Shown here piece by piece: positions 36,401-50,143 of a DNA stretch of 64,000 nucleotides. Numbering within the stretch: the first letter of the stretch is position 1; each line of letters starts with the position of its first letter. This DNA is from Magnetospirillum sp. (GTDB lineage: Bacteria > Pseudomonadota > Alphaproteobacteria > CACIAM-22H2), in contig JAPZUA010000002.1 of NCBI GenBank assembly GCA_027532905.1, forward strand, positions 496,001 through 560,000, read 5' to 3'. Under the pieces are notes generated by a model, which was not told the origin of the DNA, made no database searches, and saw nothing but the letters and a program-made list of their open reading frames with translations. Position numbers and translations under genes: made by a program.

Positions 36401-39400
36401 CGCCAATGTCGAAACCTTGGTCGGTGGCACCGAAGACGACACGGTAACAATCGGCACGTCGATGACGGCTGGATCGATCGATCTCGGCGCCGACACCGAC
36501 AGGCTGACCTTGGGCGATTTCGCCAATACGCTGACGGCCACAAACGTCGAAACGCTGACCGGCGGATCGCTTGCCGATACGGTCACGCTCGCGGCCTCGC
36601 TTGCCAGCGGGTCGATCGATCTTGCGGCCGGCAGCGACCGCTTGGTGTTGGGCGGAACCGCAGGCAACACCATTGCCGTCGCGAATGTCGAAACGCTGGT
36701 CGGCAGTTCGGGTGCGGATACGGTTACGCTGGTTGGCAGCCAGTCCGACACGACGGTGGATCTGGGGGCCGGCAACGATCGCCTGATCCTCAACAGCGCC
36801 GGTGCGGACAATACGCTTGCGCTGCTGAACGTCGAATCCTTGATCGCCGACACGGGCAACGACAGCGTCACGCTCGGCTCGGCAATGACGGCAGGCAGTA
36901 TCGATCTTTCGGACGGCAACGACCGCCTCGTGCTGGCGAGCGGGACGGCGGCCAATACCCTCGCTGTCGCGAACGTCGAAACGCTGGTCGGCGGTTCTGG
37001 CGCCGACACGGTCACGCTCGTCGGCGCCCAGTTGGGGACCACGGTCGATCTTGGTGCTGGTGCCGACAGGTTGGTGCTGGGCAATGTTGCCAACGAGGTG
37101 ACGGCGAGCAACGTCGAAACCATCGTCGGCGGAACCGACGCCGACACGGTGGCGCTCGCTTCCGCGATGAGTGCCGGTTCGGTCGATCTCGGTGCGGGCA
37201 GCGACGCGCTCGTGCTTGGCGATTTCGCCAATACGCTGACGCTCACGAACGTCGAAACAGTCGTCGCCGGATCGCTTGCGGATACGGTCACGCTGGGCTC
37301 GGCCATCGGTGCGGGGGCGACGATCGATCTGGGAGCGGGCAACGATCGGCTGATCTTGGGCGGCAGTGCCGCCAACATGGGTGCCGTTGCGAATGTCGAA
37401 ACGCTGATCGGCAGTGCGGCCGCCGACACGATCGCGCTGATCGGCAGCCAATCGGGCACGACCGTGGATCTGGGGGCTGGCAACGACCGCCTGAGCCTCG
37501 ACACCGTGGCCAACACGGTGACGGTGCTGAACGTCGAAACCCTCGTCGCCAATACCGACAACGATACGATTACATTCGGCTCGGCTGTGGCGAGCGGCAC
37601 CATCGATCTGCTCGACGGCAGCGACCGTCTTGTGCTGGGCAACTTCGCCAATACGCTGACGGCGACGAACGTCGAAACGCTGATCGGCGGATCGCTTGCC
37701 GATACGGTGGCGCTGGGCACGCAGGCGATCGACGGTTCGGTCGATCTGGGGGCGGGGGCTGACCGCCTTGCGCTCGGCAACTTTGCCAATGAACTGACGG
37801 CATCGAACGTCGAAACTTTGGTCGGCGGCACGACCGACGACACGGTTACGATCGGCGCGGCGTTGAGTGCAGGCTCGATCGATCTGGGCGCGGGCACCGA
37901 CCAGCTGTTCTTGGGCGACTTTGCAAATACGCTGACCGTCGCGAATGTCGAAACGCTGACCGGCGGTTCGCTTGCCGATACTGTTACGTTGGGTGCCGCT
38001 GTAACCAGCGGGACCGTCGATCTTTCGGGCGGCAGCGATCGGCTCGTGCTGGGCGGCACTTCGGGCAACACGATTTCCGTTTTCAACATCGAAACGCTGG
38101 TCGGCAGTGCCGGTGCCGATACGATCTCGCTCGGAACGGCGGTCGTATCGGGCACCGTCGATCTGCTGGGCGGCAACGACCGTTTGGCGCTCGGCGATCA
38201 GGCCAATACGTTGACGGTCGCCAACGTCGAAACTTTGGTCGGCGGCACCGAAGACGATACGGTGTCGATCGCGACCGCGATAACGGCCGGGACGGTCGAT
38301 CTGGGCGACGGCAACGACCGTCTCGTGCTGGGCAATTTCGCCAATACGCTGACTGTCCTCAATGTCGAAACGGTCGTCGGCGGCTCGCTTGCAGCCACGA
38401 TCACGCTGGCAACCCAGATGCTCGACGGTGCTGTCGATCTCGGGGCCGGCAACGACCGCTTGGTGCTGGGTAATTTCGAGAACACGCTGACGGCAACCAA
38501 TGTCGAAACCTTCGTCGGCGGTACCACGAGCGATACGGTGACGATCGGCACGGCGATGACGACGGGCTTGGTCGATCTGGGCGACGGCGACGATTCGCTC
38601 GCCCTCGGCAATTTCGCGAACACGCTCACGGCGAGCAACGTCGAAACGGTCGTCGGCGGTTCGCTGGCTGACACGGTCACGCTGGGCGTGGCGACGACGA
38701 GCGCTTCGATCGACCTTGTCGCAGGCAACGATCGCTTGGTGCTGGCCAGCAGCACGGTAGGCAACACAGTCACGGTATCGAACGTCGAAACGATCGTCGG
38801 CGGCACCGGTGCCGATACGGTCACGCTGTTCGGCACTCAATCGGGCGCGTCGGTGGATCTGGGGGCGGGTAACGACCAGCTGATCCTCGACACTGCCGCA
38901 AATACGATCACGGTGCTGAACGTCGAAACCCTGGTCGGCAATACCGACAACGACACGGTCACGCTCGGTGCGGCGGCGACGGCAGGCACGGTCGATCTGC
39001 TCGAGGGCAACGACCGGCTTGTGCTCGGCAATTTCGCCAACACGCTGACGGTCGTGAATGTCGAAACCATAATCGGCGGTACGGGTGCCGACACGGTGGC
39101 GCTGGTCGGCGGGCAATCCGGCGGCACTGTGGATCTGGGGGCGGGCAACGACCGCCTGATCCTCGACAGCACGACCAACACGCTGACGGTGCTGAATGTC
39201 GAGACATTGGTCGCCAGCACCGACGACGATACGATTGCGCTGGGTACGGCCATTGTGTCCGGCAGCATCGACCTTTCGGGCGGCAACGACCGTCTCGTAC
39301 TGTCCAGTGCCGCGAACACGCTTACGGTCGCGAACGTCGAGACGCTGATTGGTGCGGCCGGCGCCGACACGGTCACGCTGGCGGGCAGCCAATCGGGCAC

Positions 39401-42400
39401 CGAGGTGGATCTGGGGGCGGGGGCCGATCGCCTCGTGCTCGGCAACCTCGGAAATACGCTGACGGCCAGCAACGTCGAAACGCTGGTTGGCGGTACCGGT
39501 GCCGACACGGTGACGATCGCTGCGGCGATGGCTTCGGGCTCGATCGATCTTGGGGTCGGCAACGATGCGCTGGTGCTCGGCGACTTCGCCAATACGATAA
39601 CGGTCACGAACGTCGAGACCGTTACCGGCGGATCGCTTGCGGATACAGTCGCACTCGGTGCTGGCATCCAGTCGGGCGTCACGATCGACTTGATGGACGG
39701 CAACGATCGCCTCGTCCTGGGCGGCACAGCCGGCAATACGGGCGCCGTTGCGAATGTCGAAACGCTGATCGGCAGCACGGGTGCGGACACGATCACGCTG
39801 CTCGGCAGCCAGACGGGCACCACGGTGGATCTGGGGGCCGGCAACGACCGCCTGATCCTCGACGCGACGGCCAACACAGTGACGCTGCTGAATGTCGAAA
39901 CGCTGGTCGCTAATTCCGACGACGATACGGTCACGTTCGGCACGGCAATTACATCCGGCACAGTCGATCTGCTCGACGGCAACGACCGTCTGGTGCTGGG
40001 CCAGTTCGCCAATACCGTCACGATTTTCAACGTCGAAACGCTGGTTGCCGGGACGCGGGCCGATACGATCACCCTCGGCACGGAGATCACGGCTGGCACC
40101 ATCGATCTGTTGGCCGGCAACGACCGCCTTACGCTCGGCAACTTCGCCAATACCCTGGCGGTCGCGAATGTCGAAACCTTGGTCGGCGGCACGGCGGACG
40201 ACACGGCCACACTCGCGACCTCGATGGGCTCGGGCACGGTCGATCTGCGCGGCGGCAACGATGCGCTCGTTCTCGGCGATTTCGCCAACGCCCTGACCGT
40301 GGCCAATGTCGAGACTGTCACCGGCGGATCGCTCGCAGATACGGTTACGCTCGCCGCCGCGATCGTCGGCGGGTCCGTCGATCTTATGTCCGGCAATGAT
40401 CGACTGATTCTGGGCGGTTCCGGCAACACGGTCACGATCTCGAACATCGAGACGATCGTCGGCAGTTCCGGCGCCGACACGGTTTCGCTGGTCGGCAGCC
40501 AGGCAGGCACCACGATCGATCTCGGGGCCGGCAACGACCGCCTGATCCTCGATGCGGTCGCCAACACGTTTACGGTTCTCAACGTCGAAACTTTGACCGC
40601 CAATGCCGACGACGACACGATCACGTTCGGTACGGCTATCGTCTCGGGCAGCATCGATCTTCTGGACGGCAGCGACCGCTTGGTGCTCGGCAATTTCAAC
40701 AACACGCTGACGGTTTTCAACGTCGAAACGCTGGTTGCCGGCACGCGCGCGGATACGGTCACGCTCGGCACGGTGATGACGGCCGGCACGATCGATCTGC
40801 TGGCAGGCGCCGATCGTTTGACGCTCGGCAATTTCGTCAACACGCTTGCGGTCGCAAATATCGAGACCTTGGTCGGCGGTACTGCCGCAGACACTGTGAC
40901 GATCGGCACGGCGATGGGCTCGGGCACCGTCGATCTGCGGGGCGGCAACGACGCGCTCGTGCTCGGCAACTTCGCGAACACGCTGACGGTCGCGAATGTC
41001 GAAACCGTCACCGGCGGAACGCTGGCGGACACGGTCACCTTCGGTTCCGCATTGGCGAGCGGATCGGTCGATCTTTCGGACGGCAACGATCGTTTGGTTT
41101 TGGGCGGCACGTCTGGCAACACCGTATCGGTCGCCAACGTCGAAACGCTTGTCGGCAGTGCAGGTGCGGATACGGTGACGCTGGTTGGCGCTCAATCGGG
41201 GGCCATCGTGGATCTCGGTGCCGGCACCGACCGCCTGATCCTGGACAGCTCGGCCAACACGCTCACGGTGCTGAACGTCGAAGCCGTTGTCGCCAACACC
41301 GACAACGACACGATCACGTTCGGCACGGCCGTGACGTCGGGTACCATTGATCTGCTGGCGGGCAACGACCGCCTCGTGCTCGGTAATTTCGCCAACACGG
41401 TGACGGTGCTGAATGTCGAAACCCTTGTCGCGGGCACGCGCGCCGACACCGTCACGCTCGGGACGGCTGCCGTTTCGGGAACGATCGATCTGGGAGCCGG
41501 CAACGACCGCTTGCTGCTCGGCAACTTCGCCAATACGCTGACGGTCGCGAACGTCGAAACCCTGATCGGCGGATCCGGCGACGACACGGCGACGCTCGGC
41601 GCTGCGATGACGACGGGCTCGATCGATCTGCGCGACGGCAGCGATGCGCTCGCGCTCGGCAACTTCGCCAACACGATTGCGGTTGCGAACGTCGAAACGC
41701 TTACAGGCGGCACGCTTGCCGACACGATCGTACTATCGACCGCGACGACAAGCGGGTCCATCGACCTTGCGGGCGGCAATGACCGTCTGGCACTGGGTGG
41801 AACCACGGGCAACACCGTCGCGGTTTCGAACGTCGAAACGCTGATCGGCAGCGGTGCAGCCGATACGGTCACGCTCGGCGCGCAGATGACCGCAGGCTCG
41901 ATCGATCTCGGGGCCGGCACCGACCGTTTGACATTGTCCGACAGCGCCAACACGCTGACGATTACAAACGTCGAAACCATCGTCGGCGGTACCGATGCCG
42001 ATACCGTCACGCTCGGCAATGCGTCGACGGCCGGTCAGATCGATTTGGGGGCAGGGTCGGACGCGCTTCGCCTCGGCAATTTCGCCAACAGGATCACGGC
42101 AACCGATGTCGAGACGATCACCGGCGGCAATTCTGCTGACAACATCACGGTCGCTGGCAGCACGGGTGCGCGCATCGACGGCGGATCCGGCAACGATACG
42201 CTGATCGGCGGCGACGGCAACGACACGCTGGTCGGCAGCGGCGGCAACGATTCGTTGACCGGCGGGGCGGGCACCGACACGTTCGTGATGGGCAGCGGTG
42301 CGGACACGGTATCCGGCTTCGTTTCGGGTACCGACCAGATCGACATTGCCGCCTTCGCGTCTTTTGCCAGCATAACGGACGTCCAGTCCGCAACGACCTA

Positions 42401-42509
42401 TTCGGGCGGCAATGCGACGATCAGTCTCGGCTCCGGAACGACAGTTACGTTGCTGGGAGTCACGACGATCACCGGAGGCATGGCCGCCGACTTCGTATTC
42501 CACAGCTGA
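30495..42509 (+). CDS. Giant (4004-residue) repeat protein with C-terminal RTX motifs, probable type I-secreted adhesin/matrix protein
   Basis: After about 18 N-terminal residues the protein is a tandem array of a ~46-residue unit with core NVETLxGGxxADTVTLG, then SGTIDLxxGNDRLVLG and a short turn FANT; I estimate about 84 units. Units come in five recognisable types in fixed order: A with LVGSQ and RLILD; B with ANTDNDTITFG; C; D with GNDALVLG; E with GGSLADTVTLG and GGTSGNT. They form a 231-residue block seen about 17 times. Near residue 3895 come true RTX nonapeptides (GGSGNDTLIGGDGNDTLVGS), then a tail ending ADFVFHS like alphaproteobacterial type I secretion signals. There is no N-terminal signal peptide. 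Asp is very abundant; I saw no Lys, Cys or Trp. It probably forms a calcium-dependent beta-solenoid outside the cell. No HlyB/HlyD genes are in the window. Confidence 0.92.
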   Translation: MPISLGNSGGTYSYSVADTIIGGTGADTVTLVGSQSGVTVDLAAGADRLILDDAANTVTVLNVETLVAGSDNDTITVGTAVTAGTLDLLDGNDQLVLGNFNNTLTVRNVETLLGGTRADTITLGTAIASGSIDMLAGNDRLVLGNFANELTVANAETLMGGTGADTVTITTAMASGVVDLGAANDALVLGGFANSLTVGNVETLTGGSLADTVTLSTATTSGSIDLSDGNDRLILGGSAGNTITVSNVETLIGSAAADTVVLVGSQTGGTVDLGAGLDRLVLDAAPNTLTVVNVETLVANADDDTITIGNAVTSGTIDLLDGNDRLVLGQFNNTATLFNVETLVAGTRADTITFGTAVVSGTVDLLAGNDRLALGNFANTAAVANVETLVGGTDSDTITIAAALNAASIDLGAGNDALVLGDFANTLSLANVETLTGGTLADAVTLGSALTDGSVDLLAGNDRLVLGGTSGNTVSVANVETLIGTAGADTIALVGSQAGITLDLGAGTDRVVLDAAANTVTVLNVETLVANSDDDTVTFGTAVTSGTIDLLAGNDRLVLSGGTFANTVAVVNVETLIGSSGADTVTLADSQSGTSVDLGAGNDRLVLGDFANALTASNIETLVGGTSDDTVTLGAGINLGRIDLGAGNDALALGNFANTATATNVETITGGTLADTVTLGSAASNGTIDLSTGNDRLVLGNFANTLTVSNIETIVGGTGADTVALVGGQTGATVDLGAGADRLIFDTTANTLTVLNVETLVANSDNDTVTIGSAVLSGSIDLLDGNDRLVLANGTASNTLTVANVETLIGSTGADTVTLVGAQLGTAVDLGTGADRLVLDNLANTLTVGNVETLLGGTSDDTVTLSAAAGSSTIDLGAGNDALALGSFANTLTVANVETITGASLADTVTLGAALASGSVDLLAGNDRLVLGGTSGNTVDVANVETVIGSAGADTVTLVGSQSNSTVDLGAGADRLILQSLGLGNTLAVLNVESLVADTGNDTVTFGASVTSGSVDLLGGNDRLVLGGGAGNTVSVANAETIVGSSGADTVILVGSQTGSTVDLGAGSDRLVLDTTANTLTVLNVETLIANVDNDTIVFGTALTSGSIDLQSGNDRVTLAGGTVGNTITIAGVETLVGGSAADTVTLAGTQLGVLVDLGAGNDRLVMGNFYNEVTVSNVETLLGGTDDDSVTLGTAMTAGSIDLGGGNDALVLGGFANTLTVSNVATLTGGALADTVTLGAAMTRGSIDLAAGNDRLTLGGTSGNTITVANAETLIGSAGADTVTLVGGQSGSTVDLGADLDRLVLNSAGAANTLTVTNVESVLGDTGNDSVTFGTAVMAGSVDLSSGNDRLVLASGTAGNTLAVANVETLVGGTANDTVTLVGSQLGISVDLGAGNDRLALGNFYNELSAANVETLVGGTDEDTVAITTAMTTGLVDLLGGNDALVLGSFANTVTVANVETLTGGALGDTVTLGAAVASGSVDLAAGSDRLVLGGTSANTITVLNVETLIGSAGADTVTLVGGQSGTTVDLGAGNDRLVLDSAANTLIVSNVETLIAGVGNDSITFGTAITAGTIDFLAGNDRLVLASGTSANTVAVANVETLVGGSGADTVTLLGSQSGTSVDLGAGADRLVLGNSANALTVANVETVAGGTAADTVAVSSAAASALVDLGAGNDTLSLGSFANTVTVANVETLTGGALGDTVTLSAAQANGSIDLLADNDRLVLGGTSGNTLTVANIETIVGSSGADTVTFVGSQSGATVDLGAGNDRLILDTTANTLTVLNVETLVANTDNDTITFGTAVTAGTVDLLAGNDRLVLASGMAANTVTVANAETIVGATGADTVSLVGAQSGTTVDLGAGEDRLILDATANTLTLLNVEALVANTDNDTITFGTAITTGAVDLLAGNDRLVLGNFANMLTATNVETLTGGSLADTITLGSRMLDGSVDLGAGNDRLVLGNFPNSVTVANVETLVGGTEDDTVTIGTSMTAGSIDLGADTDRLTLGDFANTLTATNVETLTGGSLADTVTLAASLASGSIDLAAGSDRLVLGGTAGNTIAVANVETLVGSSGADTVTLVGSQSDTTVDLGAGNDRLILNSAGADNTLALLNVESLIADTGNDSVTLGSAMTAGSIDLSDGNDRLVLASGTAANTLAVANVETLVGGSGADTVTLVGAQLGTTVDLGAGADRLVLGNVANEVTASNVETIVGGTDADTVALASAMSAGSVDLGAGSDALVLGDFANTLTLTNVETVVAGSLADTVTLGSAIGAGATIDLGAGNDRLILGGSAANMGAVANVETLIGSAAADTIALIGSQSGTTVDLGAGNDRLSLDTVANTVTVLNVETLVANTDNDTITFGSAVASGTIDLLDGSDRLVLGNFANTLTATNVETLIGGSLADTVALGTQAIDGSVDLGAGADRLALGNFANELTASNVETLVGGTTDDTVTIGAALSAGSIDLGAGTDQLFLGDFANTLTVANVETLTGGSLADTVTLGAAVTSGTVDLSGGSDRLVLGGTSGNTISVFNIETLVGSAGADTISLGTAVVSGTVDLLGGNDRLALGDQANTLTVANVETLVGGTEDDTVSIATAITAGTVDLGDGNDRLVLGNFANTLTVLNVETVVGGSLAATITLATQMLDGAVDLGAGNDRLVLGNFENTLTATNVETFVGGTTSDTVTIGTAMTTGLVDLGDGDDSLALGNFANTLTASNVETVVGGSLADTVTLGVATTSASIDLVAGNDRLVLASSTVGNTVTVSNVETIVGGTGADTVTLFGTQSGASVDLGAGNDQLILDTAANTITVLNVETLVGNTDNDTVTLGAAATAGTVDLLEGNDRLVLGNFANTLTVVNVETIIGGTGADTVALVGGQSGGTVDLGAGNDRLILDSTTNTLTVLNVETLVASTDDDTIALGTAIVSGSIDLSGGNDRLVLSSAANTLTVANVETLIGAAGADTVTLAGSQSGTEVDLGAGADRLVLGNLGNTLTASNVETLVGGTGADTVTIAAAMASGSIDLGVGNDALVLGDFANTITVTNVETVTGGSLADTVALGAGIQSGVTIDLMDGNDRLVLGGTAGNTGAVANVETLIGSTGADTITLLGSQTGTTVDLGAGNDRLILDATANTVTLLNVETLVANSDDDTVTFGTAITSGTVDLLDGNDRLVLGQFANTVTIFNVETLVAGTRADTITLGTEITAGTIDLLAGNDRLTLGNFANTLAVANVETLVGGTADDTATLATSMGSGTVDLRGGNDALVLGDFANALTVANVETVTGGSLADTVTLAAAIVGGSVDLMSGNDRLILGGSGNTVTISNIETIVGSSGADTVSLVGSQAGTTIDLGAGNDRLILDAVANTFTVLNVETLTANADDDTITFGTAIVSGSIDLLDGSDRLVLGNFNNTLTVFNVETLVAGTRADTVTLGTVMTAGTIDLLAGADRLTLGNFVNTLAVANIETLVGGTAADTVTIGTAMGSGTVDLRGGNDALVLGNFANTLTVANVETVTGGTLADTVTFGSALASGSVDLSDGNDRLVLGGTSGNTVSVANVETLVGSAGADTVTLVGAQSGAIVDLGAGTDRLILDSSANTLTVLNVEAVVANTDNDTITFGTAVTSGTIDLLAGNDRLVLGNFANTVTVLNVETLVAGTRADTVTLGTAAVSGTIDLGAGNDRLLLGNFANTLTVANVETLIGGSGDDTATLGAAMTTGSIDLRDGSDALALGNFANTIAVANVETLTGGTLADTIVLSTATTSGSIDLAGGNDRLALGGTTGNTVAVSNVETLIGSGAADTVTLGAQMTAGSIDLGAGTDRLTLSDSANTLTITNVETIVGGTDADTVTLGNASTAGQIDLGAGSDALRLGNFANRITATDVETITGGNSADNITVAGSTGARIDGGSGNDTLIGGDGNDTLVGSGGNDSLTGGAGTDTFVMGSGADTVSGFVSGTDQIDIAAFASFASITDVQSATTYSGGNATISLGSGTTVTLLGVTTITGGMAADFVFHS
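30570..42140 (+). repeat. Higher-order tandem DNA repeat (about 138-bp unit, 693-bp block)
   Basis: The LVGSQ-coding segment recurs at 30585, 31278 and 31971, exactly 693 bp apart, then at 32667 (696 bp). Each block contains five ~138-bp subunits. Subunits at the same place in different blocks are more alike than neighbours within a block, which shows the blocks multiplied as a whole. Some blocks are shortened or contain hybrid units (for example near 36050-36240 and 38060-38200), a sign of unequal recombination. Confidence 0.9.
42178..42300 (+). repeat. RTX calcium-binding nonapeptide repeats
   Basis: The segment codes for GGSGNDTL, GGDGNDTL, GSGGNDSL and GGAGTDTF in succession, matching the GGxGxDxUx RTX consensus. 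It caps the giant repeat protein before the probable secretion tail. Confidence 0.88.
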
Positions 42510-42519
42510 TGGCCGGCGG

Positions 42520-44136
42520 TCAGTGCAGGCCGGGCGCTTCCTGGCCGGTGCGTGCGACGTACTCGGTGTAGCCGCCGTCGTAGCGGTGGATGCCTTCGGG
42601 GGTGAGTTCGAGCACCCGATTGGAGAGTGCCGCGAGGAACCGCCGGTCGTGCGAGACGAACAGCATCGTGCCCTCGTAGTTCGCGAGAGCGGCGATCAGC
42701 ATCTCCTTAGTTGCCATGTCGAGATGGTTCGTCGGCTCGTCGAGCACGAGGAAGTTCGGCGGATCGTAGAGCATCTGCGCCATGACCAGGCGCGCCTTTT
42801 CGCCGCCCGAGAGAACGCGGCATTTCTTTTCCACCTCGTCCCCGGAAAAGCCGAAGCAGCCTGCCAGCGTGCGCAGCGATCCTTGGCCTGCGCGCGGAAA
42901 CGAGCCTTCCAGCGATTCGAAGACCGTGCGGTCGCCGTCGAGAAGATCCATCGCATGTTGGGCGAAATAGCCCATCTTGACACTGCCGCCGAGCGCCACG
43001 CTTCCGGTGTCGGGTTTTGTCGTGCCCGCGACCAGCTTTAGCAGCGTCGATTTGCCCGCCCCGTTGACGCCGAGCACGCAACAGCGCTCGCGGCGGCGGA
43101 TCGTGTAATCGAGCGCTTCGTAGATGGTCCGGTTGCCGTAGCGCTTGTGAACGTTCCGCAGCACGACCACGTCGTCACCCGATCGCGGTGCCGCCATGAA
43201 TTCGAACGCGACCGTCTGGCGCCGCTTGGGCGGTTCGACGCGATCGATCTTCTCGAGCTTTTTGACGCGACTCTGCACCTGGGCGGCGTGCGACGCGCGC
43301 GCTTTGAAGCGTTCGATGAACTTGATTTCCTTGGCGAGCATGGCCTGCTGGCGCTCGAACTGCGCTTGTTGCTGCTTCTCGTTCTGCGCTCGCTGCATCT
43401 CGTAGAATTCGTAGTTGCCCGAATAGGTCGTCAGCGTGCCGCCGTCGATCTCGACCACTTTGTCGACGATGCGGTTCATGAATTCTCGGTCGTGCGAAGT
43501 CAGCATCAACGCGCCCTCGTAGCCCTTGAGGAAGGCTTCGAGCCAGATGAGGCTTTCAAGATCGAGGTGGTTGCTGGGCTCGTCGAGCAGCATCACGTCG
43601 GGGCGCATCAGCAGGATGCGGGCCAGCGCCACGCGCATTTTCCAGCCGCCCGACAATGCGCCGACGTCGCCGTCCATCATCTCCTGGCTGAAGCTGAGGC
43701 CGGCCAGCGTTTCGCGCGCCCGGCTCTCGAGCGCGTAGCCGCCAAGCTCTTCGAAGCGCGCCTGCACTTCCCCGAAGCGTTCGAGGACCTGCTCGAAATC
43801 TTCGGCGTCGGGATCCGCCATGCGGGCCTCGAGCGCTTTCAATTCCGCCGCGACCGCGCTCACCGCACCGGCACCGTCCATCACCTCGGCCACGGCACTG
43901 CGGCCGGACATTTCGCCCACGTCCTGGCTGAAATAGCCGATTGAGATGCCGCGATCGGTCGATACTTGGCCTTCGTCGGGTTGCTCGCGCCCCGCGATCA
44001 TGCGGAAGATTGTCGTCTTGCCGGCCCCGTTGGGACCGACGAGACCGATTTTCTCGCCCCTGAGGAGGGCTGCCGACGCTTCGATGAAGAGAAGCTGCTG
44101 GCCGTTCTGCTTGCTGATGTTGTCGAGACGAATCAT
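42520..44136 (-). CDS. ABC-F family ATP-binding protein (translation factor type)
   Basis: 538 residues from ATG 44136, with AGGA just before it; a GTG four codons upstream is rejected. It has two ABC domains without membrane segments: first Walker A GPNGAGKTT (34-42) with LSGGWKMRVALARIL, second Walker A GVNGAGKST with LSGGEKARLVMAQML and VLDEPTNHLDMATKEML. Between them is a charged coiled linker (EMQRAQNEKQQQAQFERQQAMLAKEI...), the ABC-F P-site tRNA interaction motif region. Such proteins act on the ribosome rather than in transport. It converges on the giant repeat gene with only 10 bp between stops. No terminator is visible there. Confidence 0.93.
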   Translation of the reverse strand: MIRLDNISKQNGQQLLFIEASAALLRGEKIGLVGPNGAGKTTIFRMIAGREQPDEGQVSTDRGISIGYFSQDVGEMSGRSAVAEVMDGAGAVSAVAAELKALEARMADPDAEDFEQVLERFGEVQARFEELGGYALESRARETLAGLSFSQEMMDGDVGALSGGWKMRVALARILLMRPDVMLLDEPSNHLDLESLIWLEAFLKGYEGALMLTSHDREFMNRIVDKVVEIDGGTLTTYSGNYEFYEMQRAQNEKQQQAQFERQQAMLAKEIKFIERFKARASHAAQVQSRVKKLEKIDRVEPPKRRQTVAFEFMAAPRSGDDVVVLRNVHKRYGNRTIYEALDYTIRRRERCCVLGVNGAGKSTLLKLVAGTTKPDTGSVALGGSVKMGYFAQHAMDLLDGDRTVFESLEGSFPRAGQGSLRTLAGCFGFSGDEVEKKCRVLSGGEKARLVMAQMLYDPPNFLVLDEPTNHLDMATKEMLIAALANYEGTMLFVSHDRRFLAALSNRVLELTPEGIHRYDGGYTEYVARTGQEAPGLH

Positions 44137-44361
44137 GTGTTCCTGCACTCCAAGGCCGGGACCTTAGACATTCGAGTCCGCACCCGTCCATGCCTTTGAA
44201 GGTCATTCTGCAATGCCCCGCTTGCGGCTGCGCATTTTCTCGAGGATATCTTAGCGCCTGGCGACCGCATTTGGATCGCAAGGCGGGCCGAGACTGCGCA
44301 CCATTTGATTCCCCATTTTTCGGCAAGCGGCAGACCGTAAGCACCGAGCCGATGCGTTGGC

Positions 44362-45300
44362 TTAGCCCGCGATACGGGCGCCAAGTGAATTTCCCGACAG
44401 CCAAGCGGCTTCTACGCCGGGGCCCAAAAGCCAGTCGCCGCATACGCCGAGCTTTTGGGTCGCATCGAACATGATGCCAGGGCCGGCTGCAACCGGGTTG
44501 GCGTAGCGCCAGCGATGCGCCGCGCGCGCTATTGGTGACGGCAATACAGCGGCGATGCGCATGGCGAAGGCAGCTGTCAGCGCGTCGGCGATCCAGTCCG
44601 GGTCCGCTTCGACATGCGCGCGCGACCATTCGGCCGTAGCCTGCAGGACCCAAGCGTCGGGACCTGTGCGTCCGGGCTTGGCATTGTTGCGTACCGCCAA
44701 TCCAATCGCGTCGCCTGGGCCGCCTTGGAGCCAATCGATGTCCGCCGCTAGTTTTTCGTCAAAGGCGAGCATCACGGTCCAGCAAGCTATGCTCCGCACC
44801 GCAGCGGCCTGGGCCGCAAACACCGGTGCGATCGGTTTCAACAGCGCGCTTGCCTGTTCGGCTGGGGTCGCGATGACAGCAAGATCGACGTCGATCGCTT
44901 CGCCCTGGTCGAGAACGAAGCGCCAGCCTAGATCTGTCGCGTCGATCCGCAGCACGCGTTGGGCAAACCGTACCGGTTGGGCGGCTGCCATCTGCCGGAT
45001 CGGCGCGCCCATCGTCGGCACGCCGACATAGGAAGCCGGACCCGCCGCCGGCCAGGCCGCAGCCAGACCCGCCGCGATCCACGCATCGACCCGTTGCCGA
45101 AAGGCGGGGTCGCTGGCCGTAAAAGCGGGGGCGCCATGGTCGAAGGAAGCTTCGCCGGCGGAGGTCGAAATGCGCCGCGTCGACATGCGGCCACCTGGAC
45201 CGCGCCCTTTATCGAACAACTGCACCGCGTAGTTCTGCCGCGACAGCCTTTCGGCACAGGCAAGGCCTGCCATGCCGGCCCCGACGATTCCAATTCGCAT
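44362..45300 (-). CDS. FAD-dependent oxidoreductase (renalase/amine-oxidase-like)
   Basis: 312 residues. The N-terminal dinucleotide fold MRIGIVGAGMAGLACAERL is followed by LFDKGRGPGGRMSTRR, the GG doublet typical of renalase-like flavoproteins, then FDHGAPAFTA. The C-terminus LGVCGDWLLGPGVEAAWLSGNSLG is the usual FAD-binding end. Members oxidise small amines or dihydronicotinamide isomers; the bacterial substrate here is unknown. It is the last gene of the - strand photolyase operon, 21 bp after the DCC gene. The 225-bp gap to the ABC-F gene holds no recognised gene. Confidence 0.9.
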   Translation of the reverse strand: MRIGIVGAGMAGLACAERLSRQNYAVQLFDKGRGPGGRMSTRRISTSAGEASFDHGAPAFTASDPAFRQRVDAWIAAGLAAAWPAAGPASYVGVPTMGAPIRQMAAAQPVRFAQRVLRIDATDLGWRFVLDQGEAIDVDLAVIATPAEQASALLKPIAPVFAAQAAAVRSIACWTVMLAFDEKLAADIDWLQGGPGDAIGLAVRNNAKPGRTGPDAWVLQATAEWSRAHVEADPDWIADALTAAFAMRIAAVLPSPIARAAHRWRYANPVAAGPGIMFDATQKLGVCGDWLLGPGVEAAWLSGNSLGARIAG

Positions 45301-45321
45301 GACTCTGTTTTCCTCGGAAGG

Positions 45322-45699
45322 TTAGGTACGTCTGCCCCCGGCAAGGCGCGAAACATAGGGACGGATCGGAAGAAATAAGCGATAGCCCAGTTCCAGAAGA
45401 GGCAAGACGCCCGGCAACGCGGCGACGCGCGCGGCCCAGCGCCAGCCCGGCAACTGCGTCCAGATCGCAACGAACGCTGCAGCGCCCGAGCGAACTTGGC
45501 CGTCGTCGGCGCGGACATGGAACCGCTGCAGCGCTTGCGCTTGCGTAACGCCCTCGGGCGTGGCGGCATCGGCTGCGGTGACATCGACGAAGCAGACCGC
45601 ACCGGTCTTGTCCTGGCGCCGATAATAGGCGATCTCGGCGCGGCAAAGCGGGCAGGCGCCGTCGTAGTAAGCCGTTGTTCTGGGTCGTTCGGATGTCAT
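45322..45699 (-). CDS. DCC family thiol-disulfide oxidoreductase-like protein (DUF393)
   Basis: 125 residues from ATG 45699. TAYYDGACPLCRAEIAYYRRQD carries the family motif DxxCPxC near residue 14. DVTAADAATPEGVTQAQALQRFHVRADDGQVRSGAAAFVAIWTQLP and the C-terminal GYRLFLPIRPYVSRL complete the DUF393 domain. The function is predicted from the CxxC redox motif only. It sits between a membrane methyltransferase-like gene and an FAD oxidoreductase in the photolyase operon; these partners recur near photolyases in many proteobacteria. Confidence 0.9.
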   Translation of the reverse strand: MTSERPRTTAYYDGACPLCRAEIAYYRRQDKTGAVCFVDVTAADAATPEGVTQAQALQRFHVRADDGQVRSGAAAFVAIWTQLPGWRWAARVAALPGVLPLLELGYRLFLPIRPYVSRLAGGRRT

Positions 45700-45727
45700 G
45701 TGCTGTTTCTCGATCGCGGAACAATTT

Positions 45728-46591
45728 CTATTTTTCGGCGTCGGCTGGGATTTTCGCGCGTCTGAGGCGCGGCAGCGCGTAAGGGACTTGTTCGCAATAG
45801 CGCGCAAAGCGCTCGCGATAGCGTGCCGCGAACCTTTTCTCTTTGAGGCGCGGCGCGAGCAGGCAATAGAGCGTGAAGCAGAATGCGACGGCAAGTTGGT
45901 CCGGCGTCCACACGGGCACCGTCCAAAGCGTCAGCGCGAATGCAACGTAGATCGGCTGCCGGATCAAACGGAAGAGACCGCGCGTCGGCATGTCCGGAAA
46001 GACCGGCCGGATGCGCGCGAGCAGCGACACCCAGCCCAAAGCACCCGTCTGCACTTCCGCACCGGCATCGAAGCTTGCTTTGAGCAACAGCAGCCAGCTA
46101 GCGGCATAGGCGGCCGAGACGGCCCAAAACGCGATCCCCTCGGCGCGCCACCACACGATGCCGGACGGCGTCCACAGCGCGAACAGCGCCAGCAGCTGCG
46201 CCGACGCGACGATGGCGTAGGTCGTGGTTGCGAGCGTAGCACCGTACGGGCCAGGGACTGCGCGCGTCAGCGTACGTTCGCCGCGCCGCGTGAGCAGCAG
46301 CGAATGGGCGAGCGGAAATTGCAGGATCAAGAAGGCATTGGCGACCGCCGCCCACGGCCATGCAAGTGTGCCGAAGCTCTCGCTCATGCCGAAAAACATC
46401 GCTGCGACCATCGCAAGCACGGCGGCTGCGAACAAGCTGTGGCACACAATCCCGAGCAGAATGGCAAATGCGATGCGCGCCCGCCCGGGCGGTGGCTTCA
46501 GCGCAGCCGCAACGAGGGCAACAAGGCCTGCCACACGAGGATCTGCGAGGAACGGATGTTTGTGCGGGGGCTGCATGAGGCGATCAAACAT
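45728..46591 (-). CDS. Membrane methyltransferase-like protein (NnrU/MddA/ICMT-related)
   Basis: 287 residues from ATG 46591, overlapping the upstream photolyase stop by 8 bp. About six to seven membrane segments are visible (AFAILLGIVCHSLFAAAVLAMVAAMFFG; FLILQFPLAHSLLL; ATTTYAIVASAQLLALFALW; WAVSAAYAASWLLLL). The C-terminal part GLFRLIRQPIYVAFALTLWTVPVWT and LEEK-like KEKRFAARYRERFARYCEQVPY resembles the SAM-dependent membrane methyltransferase group that includes methanethiol S-methyltransferase and ICMT. The substrate is unknown. The N-terminal 60 residues are less conserved. Confidence 0.82.
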   Translation of the reverse strand: MFDRLMQPPHKHPFLADPRVAGLVALVAAALKPPPGRARIAFAILLGIVCHSLFAAAVLAMVAAMFFGMSESFGTLAWPWAAVANAFLILQFPLAHSLLLTRRGERTLTRAVPGPYGATLATTTYAIVASAQLLALFALWTPSGIVWWRAEGIAFWAVSAAYAASWLLLLKASFDAGAEVQTGALGWVSLLARIRPVFPDMPTRGLFRLIRQPIYVAFALTLWTVPVWTPDQLAVAFCFTLYCLLAPRLKEKRFAARYRERFARYCEQVPYALPRLRRAKIPADAEK

Positions 46592-48119
46592 CAAAGGCAA
46601 ATTGGGGGTTGGGCGCGTCGGCTTTGGCGGCCTTCGGGTTGCGTCTCGGCTTGGCGAGACCTGCTTTGCGGCTTCCGTGTTTATCGACGATACGGCGTGC
46701 CGTCTCTTTGTGGTCGGCACGCCGCCGCAGCGCGTAGAGGGCGTCGCGGGCGGCACGCGCCGCTGACGCATTGTCGACGATCGGCGGCGGATAGCGCAAC
46801 ATCTCCGCCTGTTCCCAGCGCCAAGGCTCGTGTATGAACATGTCGGGCACTTGGGCAAGCTCGGGCACATGGGCCCGCACGAAAGTACCGGTCGGGTCCT
46901 GGTCGAAACCCTGCTTGACGGGGTTGTAGATGCGCATCGCGTTGATGCCCGTGGTGCCGGATTGCATCTGCACCTGGGGCCAATGGATGCCGGGTTCGTA
47001 GTCGACGAATTTGCGCGCGAGGTGCAGCCCGGTATCGCGCCACGGCAGCCACAGATGATAGCTCGCAAACGACATGAGCATTGCGCGCATTCTGAAATTG
47101 ATCCAGCCATGCCGATCGAGCGCGCGCATGCAGGCATCGACGAATGGAAAACCTGTGTTGCCGCTGCGCCAGGCGTCCAGCCGCTCGGGATCGGCGATGT
47201 CGGGGCGGATGCAGTCATAAGCACGATGCAGATTTTCAAATTCGAGGCGCGGTTCGTCTTCGAGCTTTTGCATGAAATGGCAGTGCCAATGCTGGCGTGC
47301 GGCAAACGACCGCATGGACGCACGCCAACGCTGCGTGTCGGGTCGGTCGGCAGTATCGATAGCTGCCACGCGCTTCCACGTCGCTTGCGCCACTTCGCGC
47401 ATCGAGATGGTGCCCCAGGCCAAGTGCGGCGACAGGCGTGAGCTTGCAGCGAACGCGGTCACGGGACTCGACATCTCGAAGCGATAGTCGCGGCCTCGCT
47501 GCTCGAGAAAGCTTGCGAGTGTTTCGAGCGCTGCGGCGCGTCCACCCGCTTGGCGATGCGGGCATGGGTCGGTCGCCAGGCCGAGTTCCGCGCTGGTCGG
47601 CACAGATGTGGGACCCGTCGTCGCGATCGGCTGTAGGGCAAGGGGAGGGGGTGCGGTGGGCAACGCCATGTCGCGGTCCCAAGCTTGTGCCCAGCCGTTG
47701 CGCGATTTGATACGGCGGATCACCCCGAATTGCCGTGATTCGTGCCAGGGCAAGCCCGCTCGCTTGCACCAGGCCCCAACGGCACGGTCGCGCGCATAGG
47801 TCCAGCCATTGCCGGTTTCCTCGTGGCTGAACAAGGCTGCAATGCCGAAGCGCCTGTACAGTTTCTCGAAGATTGTGACGGCGTCGCCAACCATTACCCA
47901 CAGCGGTTGACCGAGGGCGGCAAGATCATTCTGAAGCTCGGTTAGGCACTCGGCTGCGAAGTCCCATTGGCGCGCGGCTGCATCGGGCTGCTGCCACAGC
48001 GCGGGCTCGACGATGTAAAGCGGCAGCACCGGTCCGGCCTCGGCGGCCAGCGTCAGCGGGCGGTGGTCGGCGAGGCGCAGATCGCGTTTGAACCAGACGA
48101 TGTTGAGCGGCGCCGTCAT
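46584..48119 (-). CDS. Cryptochrome/DNA photolyase family protein
   Basis: 511 residues from ATG 48119, overlapping the upstream stop by 4 bp (ATGA). The N-terminal antenna domain is IVWFKRDLRLADHRPLTLAAEAGPVLPLYI (about 1-165). The FAD-binding domain follows from about 230: SRLSPHLAWGTIS, CHFMQKLEDEPRLE, GFPFVDACMRALDRHGWINFRMRAMLMSFASYHLW, and IHWPQVQMQSGTTGINAMRIYNP. The enzyme uses FADH- and blue/UV-A light to repair UV-induced pyrimidine dimers, or acts as a photoreceptor. The Lys/Arg-rich tail (about 485-505) may aid DNA binding. It is second in the operon, after a permuted photolyase-like gene. Confidence 0.92.
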   Translation of the reverse strand: MTAPLNIVWFKRDLRLADHRPLTLAAEAGPVLPLYIVEPALWQQPDAAARQWDFAAECLTELQNDLAALGQPLWVMVGDAVTIFEKLYRRFGIAALFSHEETGNGWTYARDRAVGAWCKRAGLPWHESRQFGVIRRIKSRNGWAQAWDRDMALPTAPPPLALQPIATTGPTSVPTSAELGLATDPCPHRQAGGRAAALETLASFLEQRGRDYRFEMSSPVTAFAASSRLSPHLAWGTISMREVAQATWKRVAAIDTADRPDTQRWRASMRSFAARQHWHCHFMQKLEDEPRLEFENLHRAYDCIRPDIADPERLDAWRSGNTGFPFVDACMRALDRHGWINFRMRAMLMSFASYHLWLPWRDTGLHLARKFVDYEPGIHWPQVQMQSGTTGINAMRIYNPVKQGFDQDPTGTFVRAHVPELAQVPDMFIHEPWRWEQAEMLRYPPPIVDNASAARAARDALYALRRRADHKETARRIVDKHGSRKAGLAKPRRNPKAAKADAPNPQFAFDV

Positions 48120-49300
48120 GTGCAACCGAGTTCCCGCAAATTAGTGGGGATCTGTTTTCTGAAGGCGAAGAAGCCGCGTGTGGCATGCGGCCAGAACGCG
48201 TCGTCCCAGCGGCGGCGTACATAGCTGAGCCAAATGCCCGTTTTGGAGAGATCGGATTTGATTTTCGTCAAGGCATCGGCGATCGGTCCCACCGGTGCCG
48301 CCGCGGTCACGACGTGTCGCACGCCGGCTTCGCGCGCGGCCGCAACGATGTTCGCCATATCGAGCTTCGCCGAAATTTGCACAGCGCAGCCGAACTTCTT
48401 CTGCACGCGCATCGCCGCATCGGCAGTTGCAGCATGCACAAATGTGCGCGCGTGGTTGCCCCACAGCAGATCGGCGTCGGCTGCGACGATTGCTGCAGCA
48501 AAGCACTTTTGCCCATCGAACAGCGATTCCGGATGGAGATCTTCCGCTGTGACTAGCAGTAAGGCGGGAGATGAGGGCGCGTCGGCCGGCAACGGTGCCA
48601 GCGGTCGGATCGGCGGAAGCGGGGCTTCGGTCAGCGCTTGCGCCTCCGTTGCCAGACCTTGCGGCGTGAAGCGGCCCTCGGTACAGCGCGCAATGTTGTC
48701 GCGCGTCGCAAGATAAGTCTTCCCCGCCGTCTGCAAGCCCGCCACCCAGCGCCAGGAAAGCGTGTTGCTGGCCGGATCGGCATCGATCAGATGGCGTAGG
48801 AAGAAGTCGGCGCCGAGCGCCCACGGCAGGCGCAGCGTAAAAATCCAAATCGAGGCGAACCACATGCGCGCATGATTGTGCAGATAGCCGGTCTCGACAA
48901 GTTCGCGCGCCCAATCGTCGAAACCTTTGATGCCTGTCTCGCCCTTTTCCGCAGACGCGACTTCGCCAGTGCGCTTAGATGCGTCGCGCGCGTCCAGAAA
49001 GCGCGACCAAACTGTCGGGTGCAACTCGAGCCATCCCTTCCAGTAGGTGCGCCACAGCACCTCCTGGACGAACTTCTCGGCGTCGTCGAATCTATGCCGA
49101 GCCAGAACCGCACCCACAATCTCGGCTTCGGTAACCAAGCGGTGCCGGAGATAAGGGGAAAGCCGCGATACCGCACTTCCGCGCCCAGGTCCTGGATCGA
49201 TATTTCGCTCGGCTGCGTAATGCGGCCCGGCACCCGGCACGAAAACTTCGAGACGGTCCAGGGCTGCGGCACGTGAAGGCGGAAAGGCAGGCGATGTCAT
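48116..49300 (-). CDS. Photolyase-like FAD-binding protein with apparently permuted domains
   Basis: 394 residues from ATG 49300. The photolyase FAD-binding region comes first: SRLSPYLRHRLVTEAEIV (from residue 46), WRTYWKGWLELHPTVW (83-98), GYLHNHARMWFASIWIF (138-154) and LIDADPASNTLSWRWVAGLQ (171-190). No antenna domain precedes it. Residues about 245-385 instead form an alpha/beta-like domain (ALLLVTAEDLHPESL, CFAAAIVAADADLLW, GVRHVVTAAAPVGPIADAL, GIWLSYVRRRWDDAFWPHA) that resembles the photolyase N-terminal domain by strand order and by its end. I infer a circular permutation. First gene of the photolyase operon; light-dependent repair or sensing is likely, but not shown. Confidence 0.82.
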   Translation of the reverse strand: MTSPAFPPSRAAALDRLEVFVPGAGPHYAAERNIDPGPGRGSAVSRLSPYLRHRLVTEAEIVGAVLARHRFDDAEKFVQEVLWRTYWKGWLELHPTVWSRFLDARDASKRTGEVASAEKGETGIKGFDDWARELVETGYLHNHARMWFASIWIFTLRLPWALGADFFLRHLIDADPASNTLSWRWVAGLQTAGKTYLATRDNIARCTEGRFTPQGLATEAQALTEAPLPPIRPLAPLPADAPSSPALLLVTAEDLHPESLFDGQKCFAAAIVAADADLLWGNHARTFVHAATADAAMRVQKKFGCAVQISAKLDMANIVAAAREAGVRHVVTAAAPVGPIADALTKIKSDLSKTGIWLSYVRRRWDDAFWPHATRGFFAFRKQIPTNLRELGCT

Positions 49301-49408
49301 GGCACAAATAAGCTGTTGCAAAAGCAGTGAATTTCAATCGCGACCGCCTGACGCTCCGGCAACCCCCTTGTTCTAGCTCAACTATTTCTTAAGCGCCTGA
49401 CCGCTCGT

Positions 49409-50143
49409 TTACGAGCGTCCGCCGTCCACCGACAGAATCTGGCCGCTTATCCATCCAGCCTGTTCGCTTGCCAGGAACAGCACCGCGTTGGCGATGTCTT
49501 TCGCCGTGCCCAAACGCCGCGTGTGGATACTTTCGACGAGCTGCGTTTGTTTGGCAGGCGAATAGGCTTGCCATTGCCGCTCGGTCGTCGGGTTCGAGCG
49601 AACGAAGCCGGGTGCGACCGAATTGCTGGTGATGCCGAACGGCCCTAGGTCCTGGCTCAGCTGTTTGGTGAGACCCACGAGCGCATGTTTGGCGGCCGTA
49701 TAGGCCTGAATGCCGGTGAGGCTCGGGCGCAAGCCGGCGCCCGACGAGATCGTGACGATGCGGCCGTAGCCCGCTTTGCGCATCGGTGTGCTTGCCGCTT
49801 GCGCAAGCCAGAAGGCGCTGTCGACATTGGCCGCGAAGATCGCGCGCCATGCCGCTTCGTCGACATTCTCGATGGGCCCGCCAACTTGGCCGCGCACGCC
49901 GCCTGCCGCATTGACCAAAACATCCAATGAGCCGACATCGGCAACGAGCCGATGCACGGCCGAACGGTCGCCGAGATCGACTTGGTGTGCTACGTAAACG
50001 CCGTCTACATTCCATGCGATCGGGGCGATGTCAGCGAGATGTACTTTCGCACCGGCCGCCTGCAACGATTCCGCGATCGCGCGGCCGATACCCTGGGCGG
50101 CACCCGTAACAAGAGCCGTGCGGCCTGCGAAATCTAGGCGCAT
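49409..50143 (-). CDS. SDR family oxidoreductase
   Basis: 244 residues. Cofactor motif TGAAQGIG is at 13-20; VNAAGG follows, then the catalytic Ser in VTISSGAG and YTAAK (Tyr and Lys). The C-terminus WISGQILSVDGG is standard. ATG 50143 lies inside the end of the upstream reductase gene (10-bp overlap), which indicates coupling. It is the last gene of a three-gene - strand set (peptidase, ketopantoate-reductase-like, SDR). It may act on a product of the peptide or amide catabolised here; substrate unknown. Confidence 0.92.
   Translation of the reverse strand: MRLDFAGRTALVTGAAQGIGRAIAESLQAAGAKVHLADIAPIAWNVDGVYVAHQVDLGDRSAVHRLVADVGSLDVLVNAAGGVRGQVGGPIENVDEAAWRAIFAANVDSAFWLAQAASTPMRKAGYGRIVTISSGAGLRPSLTGIQAYTAAKHALVGLTKQLSQDLGPFGITSNSVAPGFVRSNPTTERQWQAYSPAKQTQLVESIHTRRLGTAKDIANAVLFLASEQAGWISGQILSVDGGRS

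Follow-up and report, generated by a model that had tools for sequence, protein, structure and literature searches.

Why should a bacterium keep, in one row of five tightly packed genes, two photolyase-type genes together with genes for a probable membrane protein, a DCC-type protein and a flavin adenine dinucleotide (FAD) oxidoreductase? The question is raised by a locus of Magnetospirillum sp. (GenBank assembly GCA_027532905.1) that lies in a stretch of 64,000 nucleotides, called here the window (contig JAPZUA010000002.1, positions 496,001 to 560,000). The genes are numbered 1 to 5 from the high-coordinate end. We consider it on balance probable that the row forms a single transcription unit directed at photodamage, in which gene 1, a photolyase of the NewPHL/SPL class, would carry out repair and gene 2, a member of a photolyase family with a rebuilt active site, would act on a different lesion or by a different photochemistry.

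Gene 1 is a photolyase of the NewPHL/SPL class. Its Pfam match is limited to the first part of the FAD domain (FAD_binding_7). The AlphaFold2 model (48 sequences; mean pLDDT 93.9, pTM 0.91) consists of helices up to approximately residue 206 and an alpha/beta domain from residue 246 onward, so that the domain order is inverted in the model, with the FAD domain at the N terminus (approximately residues 1–224) and the alpha/beta domain at the C terminus (approximately 245–394). In VIA-align, residues 1–220 matched the C-terminal domain of 1iqr (Z 16.1, root-mean-square deviation 2.9, 212 aligned) and residues 1–226 that of 1dnp (Z 14.7, root-mean-square deviation 2.8, 213 aligned); at least one fifth of the VIA rows span residues 1–224 only. 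A preliminary description of the locus had named two photolyase-type proteins, one of them permuted, and this is supported, with the correction that gene 1 alone is permuted.

The residues of gene 1 are those of an enzyme that repairs cyclobutane pyrimidine dimers (CPDs). With residues numbered as in the photolyase of E. coli after removal of the Met, E274, W277, N341, M345, N378, and W382 were present in 108/108 NewPHL rows and W384 in 106/108, and all seven were present in every one of 16 control photolyase rows (15 distinct). No column of the 48-row NewPHL alignment has Cys in at least half of its rows, and the cysteines of an Fe-S cluster are absent (Phr7 type). According to the passages of PMC13274461 and PMC9426592 that cite Emmerich et al. 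(2020, Nucleic Acids Res 48:12845), NewPHL/SPL/Phr7 proteins are single-strand-specific CPD photolyases. Because this class is published, the permuted photolyase of the operon is of an already known kind. The most likely role of gene 1 would be the repair of CPDs in single-stranded DNA, driven by electron transfer from FADH- that has been excited by light.

Gene 2 is of a different kind. It contains PF00875 followed by PF03441 in the usual order (93.6 and 200.1 bits), and its AlphaFold2 model (pLDDT 81.2) shows a whole photolyase fold (4u63, E 6.5e-29, TM 0.75 by query). The best phmmer match in the PDB was 6kii, an Arthrospira photolyase (E 3e-35). It falls below all five NCBIfam cut-offs among the models that it matched, and neither gene 1 nor gene 2 matched the DPRP domain PF04244 (for gene 2, in Pfam at E 0.1). 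An assignment as Cry-DASH was rejected (TIGR02765, 136.9 bits vs a cut-off of 317). None of 289 genomes of the class reached the Cry-DASH cut-off, and for this reason the tree was built without DASH rows; the count is in line with the idea that NewPHL takes the single-strand role in bacteria without DASH. In the tree, the gene-2 sequences form one clade (support 100/100) with a very long stem; this branch and that of NewPHL are both long and may be subject to mutual attraction, and the unity of the clade is used here with the relation between the two left aside. Photolyase-like matches to gene 2 at 24–28% identity were also seen in phage records (n=10).

The residue pattern of this clade was read from 51 rows, all distinct, made up of a 19-sequence alignment, eight plasmid records (Alphaproteobacteria, Gammaproteobacteria, Deinococcus, and Bacteroidota), and 24 genomes of the class sample. 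Three residues are retained without exception (W277 and, in the FAD pocket, R344 and D372, 51/51) and W359 in 50/51 rows. Other residues are replaced in a uniform manner: R274, F341, and H378 were found in 51/51 rows and A345 and M384 in 50/51. Position 382 is Trp in 0/51 rows (Val 27, Phe 6, Met 4, Leu 3, Cys 3, Ala 3, Ile 2, Ser 2, Thr 1), and every row has either Trp or Tyr at position 379. Positions 278–280 read His/Arg, Cys (45/51), and His (49/51). Of the CPD residues E274, N341, M345, N378, W382, and W384, not one is retained in any of the 51 gene-2 rows, with the caution that the alignment of 378–384 calls for; against 6kii, this stretch aligns free of gaps. Because the lesion contacts, the N5-facing Asn and the proximal Trp are replaced in a fixed way, gene 2, a second FAD-binding protein of the photolyase superfamily, would most likely serve a different DNA lesion or a different photochemistry.

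A further clue came from Deinococcus. In all four opened plasmid records of this genus, the gene-2 homologue and a uracil-DNA glycosylase (UDG) form a single reading frame, so that PF00875, PF03441, and PF03167 stand in one protein. All four proteins carry GQDPYH and HPSPLS, the motifs of family-1 UDGs, and they carry the gene-2 residues at 274, 341, 345, 378, and 384 with no Trp at 382. Seven Deinococcus rows have a glycosylase annotation beneath the gene-2 match. One opened fusion lies beside dinB and near a gene of the spore photoproduct lyase family. As a point of annotation, the four fusions are labeled uracil-DNA glycosylase only, and in one of them (L145) the annotated start lies inside the photolyase part. 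Cytosine within dimers deaminates to uracil, and it would therefore make sense to link a photolyase to a uracil glycosylase. The fusion suggests that the lesion may be one after which uracil stays behind in the DNA, dimers with deaminated cytosine being an example.

A bolder proposal can be built on these observations, which we put forward tentatively and hold to be doubtful as a whole. It states that gene 2 belongs to a widespread branch with a fixed site (R274, F341, A345, H378, aromatic 379, M384, no W382) that reverses a lesion neither plain CPD nor 6-4, for example uracil-containing dimers with deaminated cytosine, from which the uracil would then be removed by UDG, and that NewPHL, FeS-BCP, gene 2, the DCC protein and renalase would together constitute a common photodamage toolkit for DNA and nicotinamide cofactors. 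Within the locus, the gene-2 family is the newer element and probably an uncharacterised branch of DNA photorepair, as judged from a literature look-up that was not aimed at the His378 signature or the photolyase–UDG fusion.

The layout of the locus (Table 1) is compact. The first two junctions overlap by 4 and 8 bp, and the last two leave gaps of 28 bp and 21 bp, in agreement with what had been described, and the genes may well be cotranscribed. The identical five-gene order was found in G017 and G019, two further members of the genus, with 74–89% protein identity, which argues that the row is not due to chance. The intact set is present in 3/11 genomes of the genus, and a full-length orthologue of gene 1 in 3/11 genus genomes and 3/23 family genomes.

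Table 1. Features of the locus, in positions of the window
Feature	Positions	Strand	Basis or remark
Conserved block of ~40 bp directly before gene 1; candidate promoter or leader	49301..49341	-	Kept in three orthologous operons
Gene 1, 394 aa, NewPHL/SPL-type photolyase	48116..49300	-	Pfam, AlphaFold2, fold match, residues
Gene 2, 511 aa, variant photolyase family with rebuilt active site	46584..48119	-	Pfam, residues, AlphaFold2, tree
Gene 3, 287 aa, probable membrane protein, divergent MddA relative	45728..46591	-	NCBIfam and Pfam below cut-off
Gene 4, 125 aa, DCC1-like thiol-disulfide oxidoreductase, motif DGACPLC	45322..45699	-	PF04134
Gene 5, 312 aa, renalase-type FAD oxidoreductase	44362..45300	-	phmmer to 4zcc

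The boundaries of the operon were examined on both sides. An upstream short-chain dehydrogenase/reductase gene was rejected as a member, as neither G017 nor G019 has a counterpart of it ahead of the operon; G017 carries a 35%-identical one on the opposite side. A downstream ABC-F gene was rejected by G017 only, where it is absent beside the operon; in G019, it is present there at 96%. No sigma-70-like promoter was found on either strand of 44000–49800, and hence none before gene 1. The conserved block reads GCGATTGAAAT...TTTTGCA.CAG.TTA and has no sigma-70 match; assignment of a promoter type by eye gave no convincing match either, and the block alone is reported. Two terminator-like matches lie in 44000–49800 vs 6.6 expected from shuffles, and one of them is on the operon strand, inside gene 3 (46416–46402).

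The remaining three genes differ in how far they can be assigned. First, gene 3, with a weak PEMT match in Pfam (14.8 bits, cut-off 25), is a genus-level addition to the operon. Its identification as methanethiol S-methyltransferase MddA was rejected (NF045656, 71.9 bits vs a cut-off of 270, compared to 305.8 and 351.1 for two other homologues of the class), and it has RQP at the position of RHP, the motif of MddA-type enzymes, as do the copies at L021, L022, and L204. Homologues at E 1e-10 occur in 17/190 genomes of the class, and the sole close one outside the genus (59%, G118) lies on contig C5 of a genome whose gene-2 homologue is on C30. Second, gene 4 is the only PF04134 match of the genome (94 bits vs a cut-off of 27.8), and its residues D13, G14, C16, P17, and C19 are invariant across 12 rows; it may serve as a small dithiol redox helper. 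Third, gene 5, with NAD_binding_8/Amino_oxidase matches in Pfam, was described earlier as an FAD oxidoreductase accompanying a DCC protein; both are present, and the oxidoreductase can now be specified as a renalase (4zcc, E 4.3e-48, residues 3–309 of 312). It is the sole full-length renalase found in the genome, a second match covering residues 2–62 only. Renalase oxidises 2- and 6-dihydro-NAD(P) and thereby removes harmful NAD(P)H isomers, and gene 5 would do the same here.

The neighbourhoods of gene-1 and gene-2 homologues were surveyed within 5 kb, with some contigs ending early and with cut-offs of our own choice: NewPHL counted as full-length from 300 bits, and membership of the gene-2 family was set at 420 bits; two genomes with intermediate scores near 328 bits (G280 and G183) were kept out of the gene-2 counts. 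Among the 80 best-scoring of at least 589 NewPHL loci in genome_contigs, the gene-2 family was found in 19, FeS-BCP in 14, DCC in 13, and renalase in 9, some of the renalases being only 26–33% identical to gene 5. The DCC gene was on the same strand in 13/13 cases and within 200 bp in 12/13. One or more of these four partners occurred in 36/80 of the loci, as well as in 7/19 full-length NewPHL genomes outside the genus from an evenly drawn class sample (gene 2 in 3, FeS-BCP in 2, DCC in 3). NewPHL, gene 2, and FeS-BCP stand in a row in five loci (L037, L040, L050, L051, and L052). A UbiB-like kinase (3), DUF3429 (4), and gene 3 (1, the genus copy) were rare among the best 80, and UbiB and DUF3429, rejected as core partners on these counts, are treated as side partners. 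Hence, the recurring light-related neighbourhood that had been expected does exist as pairwise links, and the exact set is not conserved outside the genus: gene 2, DCC, and renalase all lie near NewPHL in the genus copy alone among the best 80, and in none of the 79 + 19 NewPHL loci outside the genus.

The survey from the side of gene 2 gave a similar picture. Among the 289 genomes, full NewPHL is present in 21 and gene 2 in 30, and both occur together in 11 vs 2.2 expected (9 vs 1.9 without the genus), a significance that is only indicative because the genomes are related. Loci were opened in 24 of the 28 gene-2 genomes outside the genus, and NewPHL, FeS-BCP, renalase, or DCC was found nearby in 10/24, or in 6/20 after dropping four that had been fetched for a nearby NewPHL. 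The first eight gene-2 plasmid loci opened comprised two with a partner and six without. A Novosphingobium plasmid holds renalase, FeS-BCP, DCC, the gene-2 family, and a UbiB-like kinase within ~8 kb, and a Persicobacter (Bacteroidota) plasmid holds a short NewPHL-like gene, the gene-2 family, and FeS-BCP. Renalase is present in 51/289 genomes, and at least 5/53 copies outside the genus (in G134, G169, G242, G118, and G270) have a photolyase gene within 5 kb, as read from coordinates (rough chance value 2e-4, assuming 3 photolyase-type genes per 3.5 Mb).

Several other observations were made in these surveys. UbiB/ABC1-like kinase genes lie near NewPHL in L026, L027, L028, L029, and L031, and in three Asticcacaulis plasmids NewPHL also stands between renalase-like and DUF3429 genes. 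A divergent clpP adjoins NewPHL in 12 Rhodobacteraceae/roseobacter loci, and a Nei-type DNA glycosylase, named by eye, lies within 5 kb in 6/80 best loci. NewPHL-like matches that end after the FAD domain (137–182 bits) were found in eight genomes, six of which also have the gene-2 family; one of the eight, G234, stands outside the 19 and was chosen for its gene 2 beside a short NewPHL-like gene. The NewPHL of Novosphingobium sp. THN1 (L030:7001-8115) has matches in two frames and may be frameshifted. Near the gene-2 family, a small protein recurs in 4/24 loci, its copy in L267 being TIGR03643, and in two plasmids the next gene after gene 2 is DUF2256. Elsewhere in the window, 30495–42509 (+) is a 4004-aa open reading frame with RTX calcium-binding repeats near the C-terminal end; its first 1000 residues gave no Pfam match at E 1e-5.

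Collectively, these results indicate that the operon represents a local version of a loosely associated guild of genes that counter light damage. Genes 1 and 2 probably complement each other as photolyase-type enzymes, in addition to the canonical photolyase and the FeS-BCP of the same genome, and they may plausibly co-operate with genes 4 and 5. Gene 3 is a local addition.

Several observations weigh against this interpretation. When the E. coli photolyase is used alone, phmmer pairs Trp380 of gene 2 with Trp382 by means of a 3-residue gap, and the AlphaFold2 model is unreliable at 376–393, so that the residue calls at 378–384 rest on the alignment. The rebuilt active site is as compatible with a photoreceptor as with an enzyme of repair. 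The 80 NewPHL loci are biased toward close relatives because they are the best-scoring ones, and the genomes of the surveys are not independent. No partner was found within 5 kb in 44/80 best and 12/19 class-sample NewPHL loci, renalase is beside NewPHL in 0/19 class-sample genomes, and no partner was found near 14/24 gene-2 loci outside the genus. Furthermore, the need for the operon is not obvious, as the genome has a canonical photolyase elsewhere and its own FeS-BCP approximately 214 kb away on the same contig.

The explanation that survives best beside ours is co-regulation only, in which a regulator of light or photo-oxidative stress would control five functions that are independent of each other (DNA repair, thiol redox, cofactor repair, and a membrane protein) and never form one pathway. 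We regard it as a real possibility short of being the probable one. It agrees with the finding that neighbour sets differ between genomes and with published precedents: in Vibrio cholerae, cryptochrome/photolyase operons rise under blue light, with ChrR and MerR named as regulators of the response (PMC5241685), and in Synechococcus PCC 7335, an operon of two photolyases is inducible by UV-B (PMC9649867). However, the link of DCC with NewPHL is very tight, and this spacing hints at more than shared regulation.

Another explanation concerns gene 2 itself, which might be a blue-light receptor of the cryptochrome type that has lost repair and controls the operon or a light behaviour. The position facing N5 differs between photolyases and cryptochromes, and it is His in 51/51 rows; the replacement of all six CPD residues together with retention of W277 and of R344 and D372 in the FAD pocket would equally suit a receptor. 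On the other hand, the Deinococcus fusion with UDG and the repeated pairing with other photolyases favour DNA repair, and the plant cryptochrome model of NCBIfam gave 124.7 bits vs a cut-off of 603.85. We therefore judge a receptor to be unlikely. The proposal of the preliminary description that the genes form one pathway making or repairing a light-sensitive molecule, in favour of which one may cite that flavoproteins, a dithiol protein and a membrane protein resembling methyltransferases are mixed in the operon, found no support and is highly improbable, since the neighbours vary and several are DNA-repair genes, gene 3 occupies this place in the genus only among the loci examined and fails as MddA in both score and motif, and gene 2, DCC, and renalase keep no joint company with NewPHL in the 79 + 19 loci surveyed outside the genus.

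The mechanism of photolyases is usually explained by a few residues around FAD, and the gene-2 clade, sampled here from Alphaproteobacteria, Gammaproteobacteria, Deinococcus, and one Bacteroidota plasmid, is a natural experiment in which residues of the FAD pocket are retained and nearly all of the catalytic residues are swapped alike; it either repairs something new or uses the excited flavin differently. The glycosylase fusion provides a concrete and cheap handle for testing its function. The family may help to explain why genomes with canonical photolyases have several extra ones, and renalase, mostly studied in humans, is linked here to bacterial light damage.

Compared to known systems, the locus exhibits both shared and distinct features. 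First, like NewPHL/SPL/Phr7 proteins, gene 1 has an N-terminal FAD domain, a C-terminal alpha/beta (Z) domain, the CPD residues and no conserved Fe-S cysteines; the protein itself shows no difference from them, and what sets it apart is that it heads a row of five genes. Second, gene 2 resembles the class I and class III CPD photolyases in its two domains, whole fold, and FAD-pocket Arg344 and Asp372, and differs from them by E274R, N341F, M345A, N378H, W384M, and the loss of W382; against the NCBIfam model PRK10674, it reaches 167.4 bits (cut-off 506). It shares its superfamily with Cry-DASH and with a "DASH-like" group named in PMC9178010, which may or may not be the gene-2 family. Third, the FeS-BCP prokaryotic (6-4) photolyases, whose genes recur beside gene-1 and gene-2 homologues, have PF04244, unlike genes 1 and 2. 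Fourth, gene 5 is similar over its full length to bacterial renalase (PDB 4zcc), whose activity it is predicted to share, and is distinguished by its association with photolyase genes. Finally, the closest parallel in layout is the UV-B-inducible operon of Synechococcus PCC 7335, in which two photolyase-superfamily genes also overlap by a few bases (PMC9649867); those two genes belong to other photolyase classes, and the operon is described as consisting of them alone and hence without DCC, renalase, or membrane protein genes.

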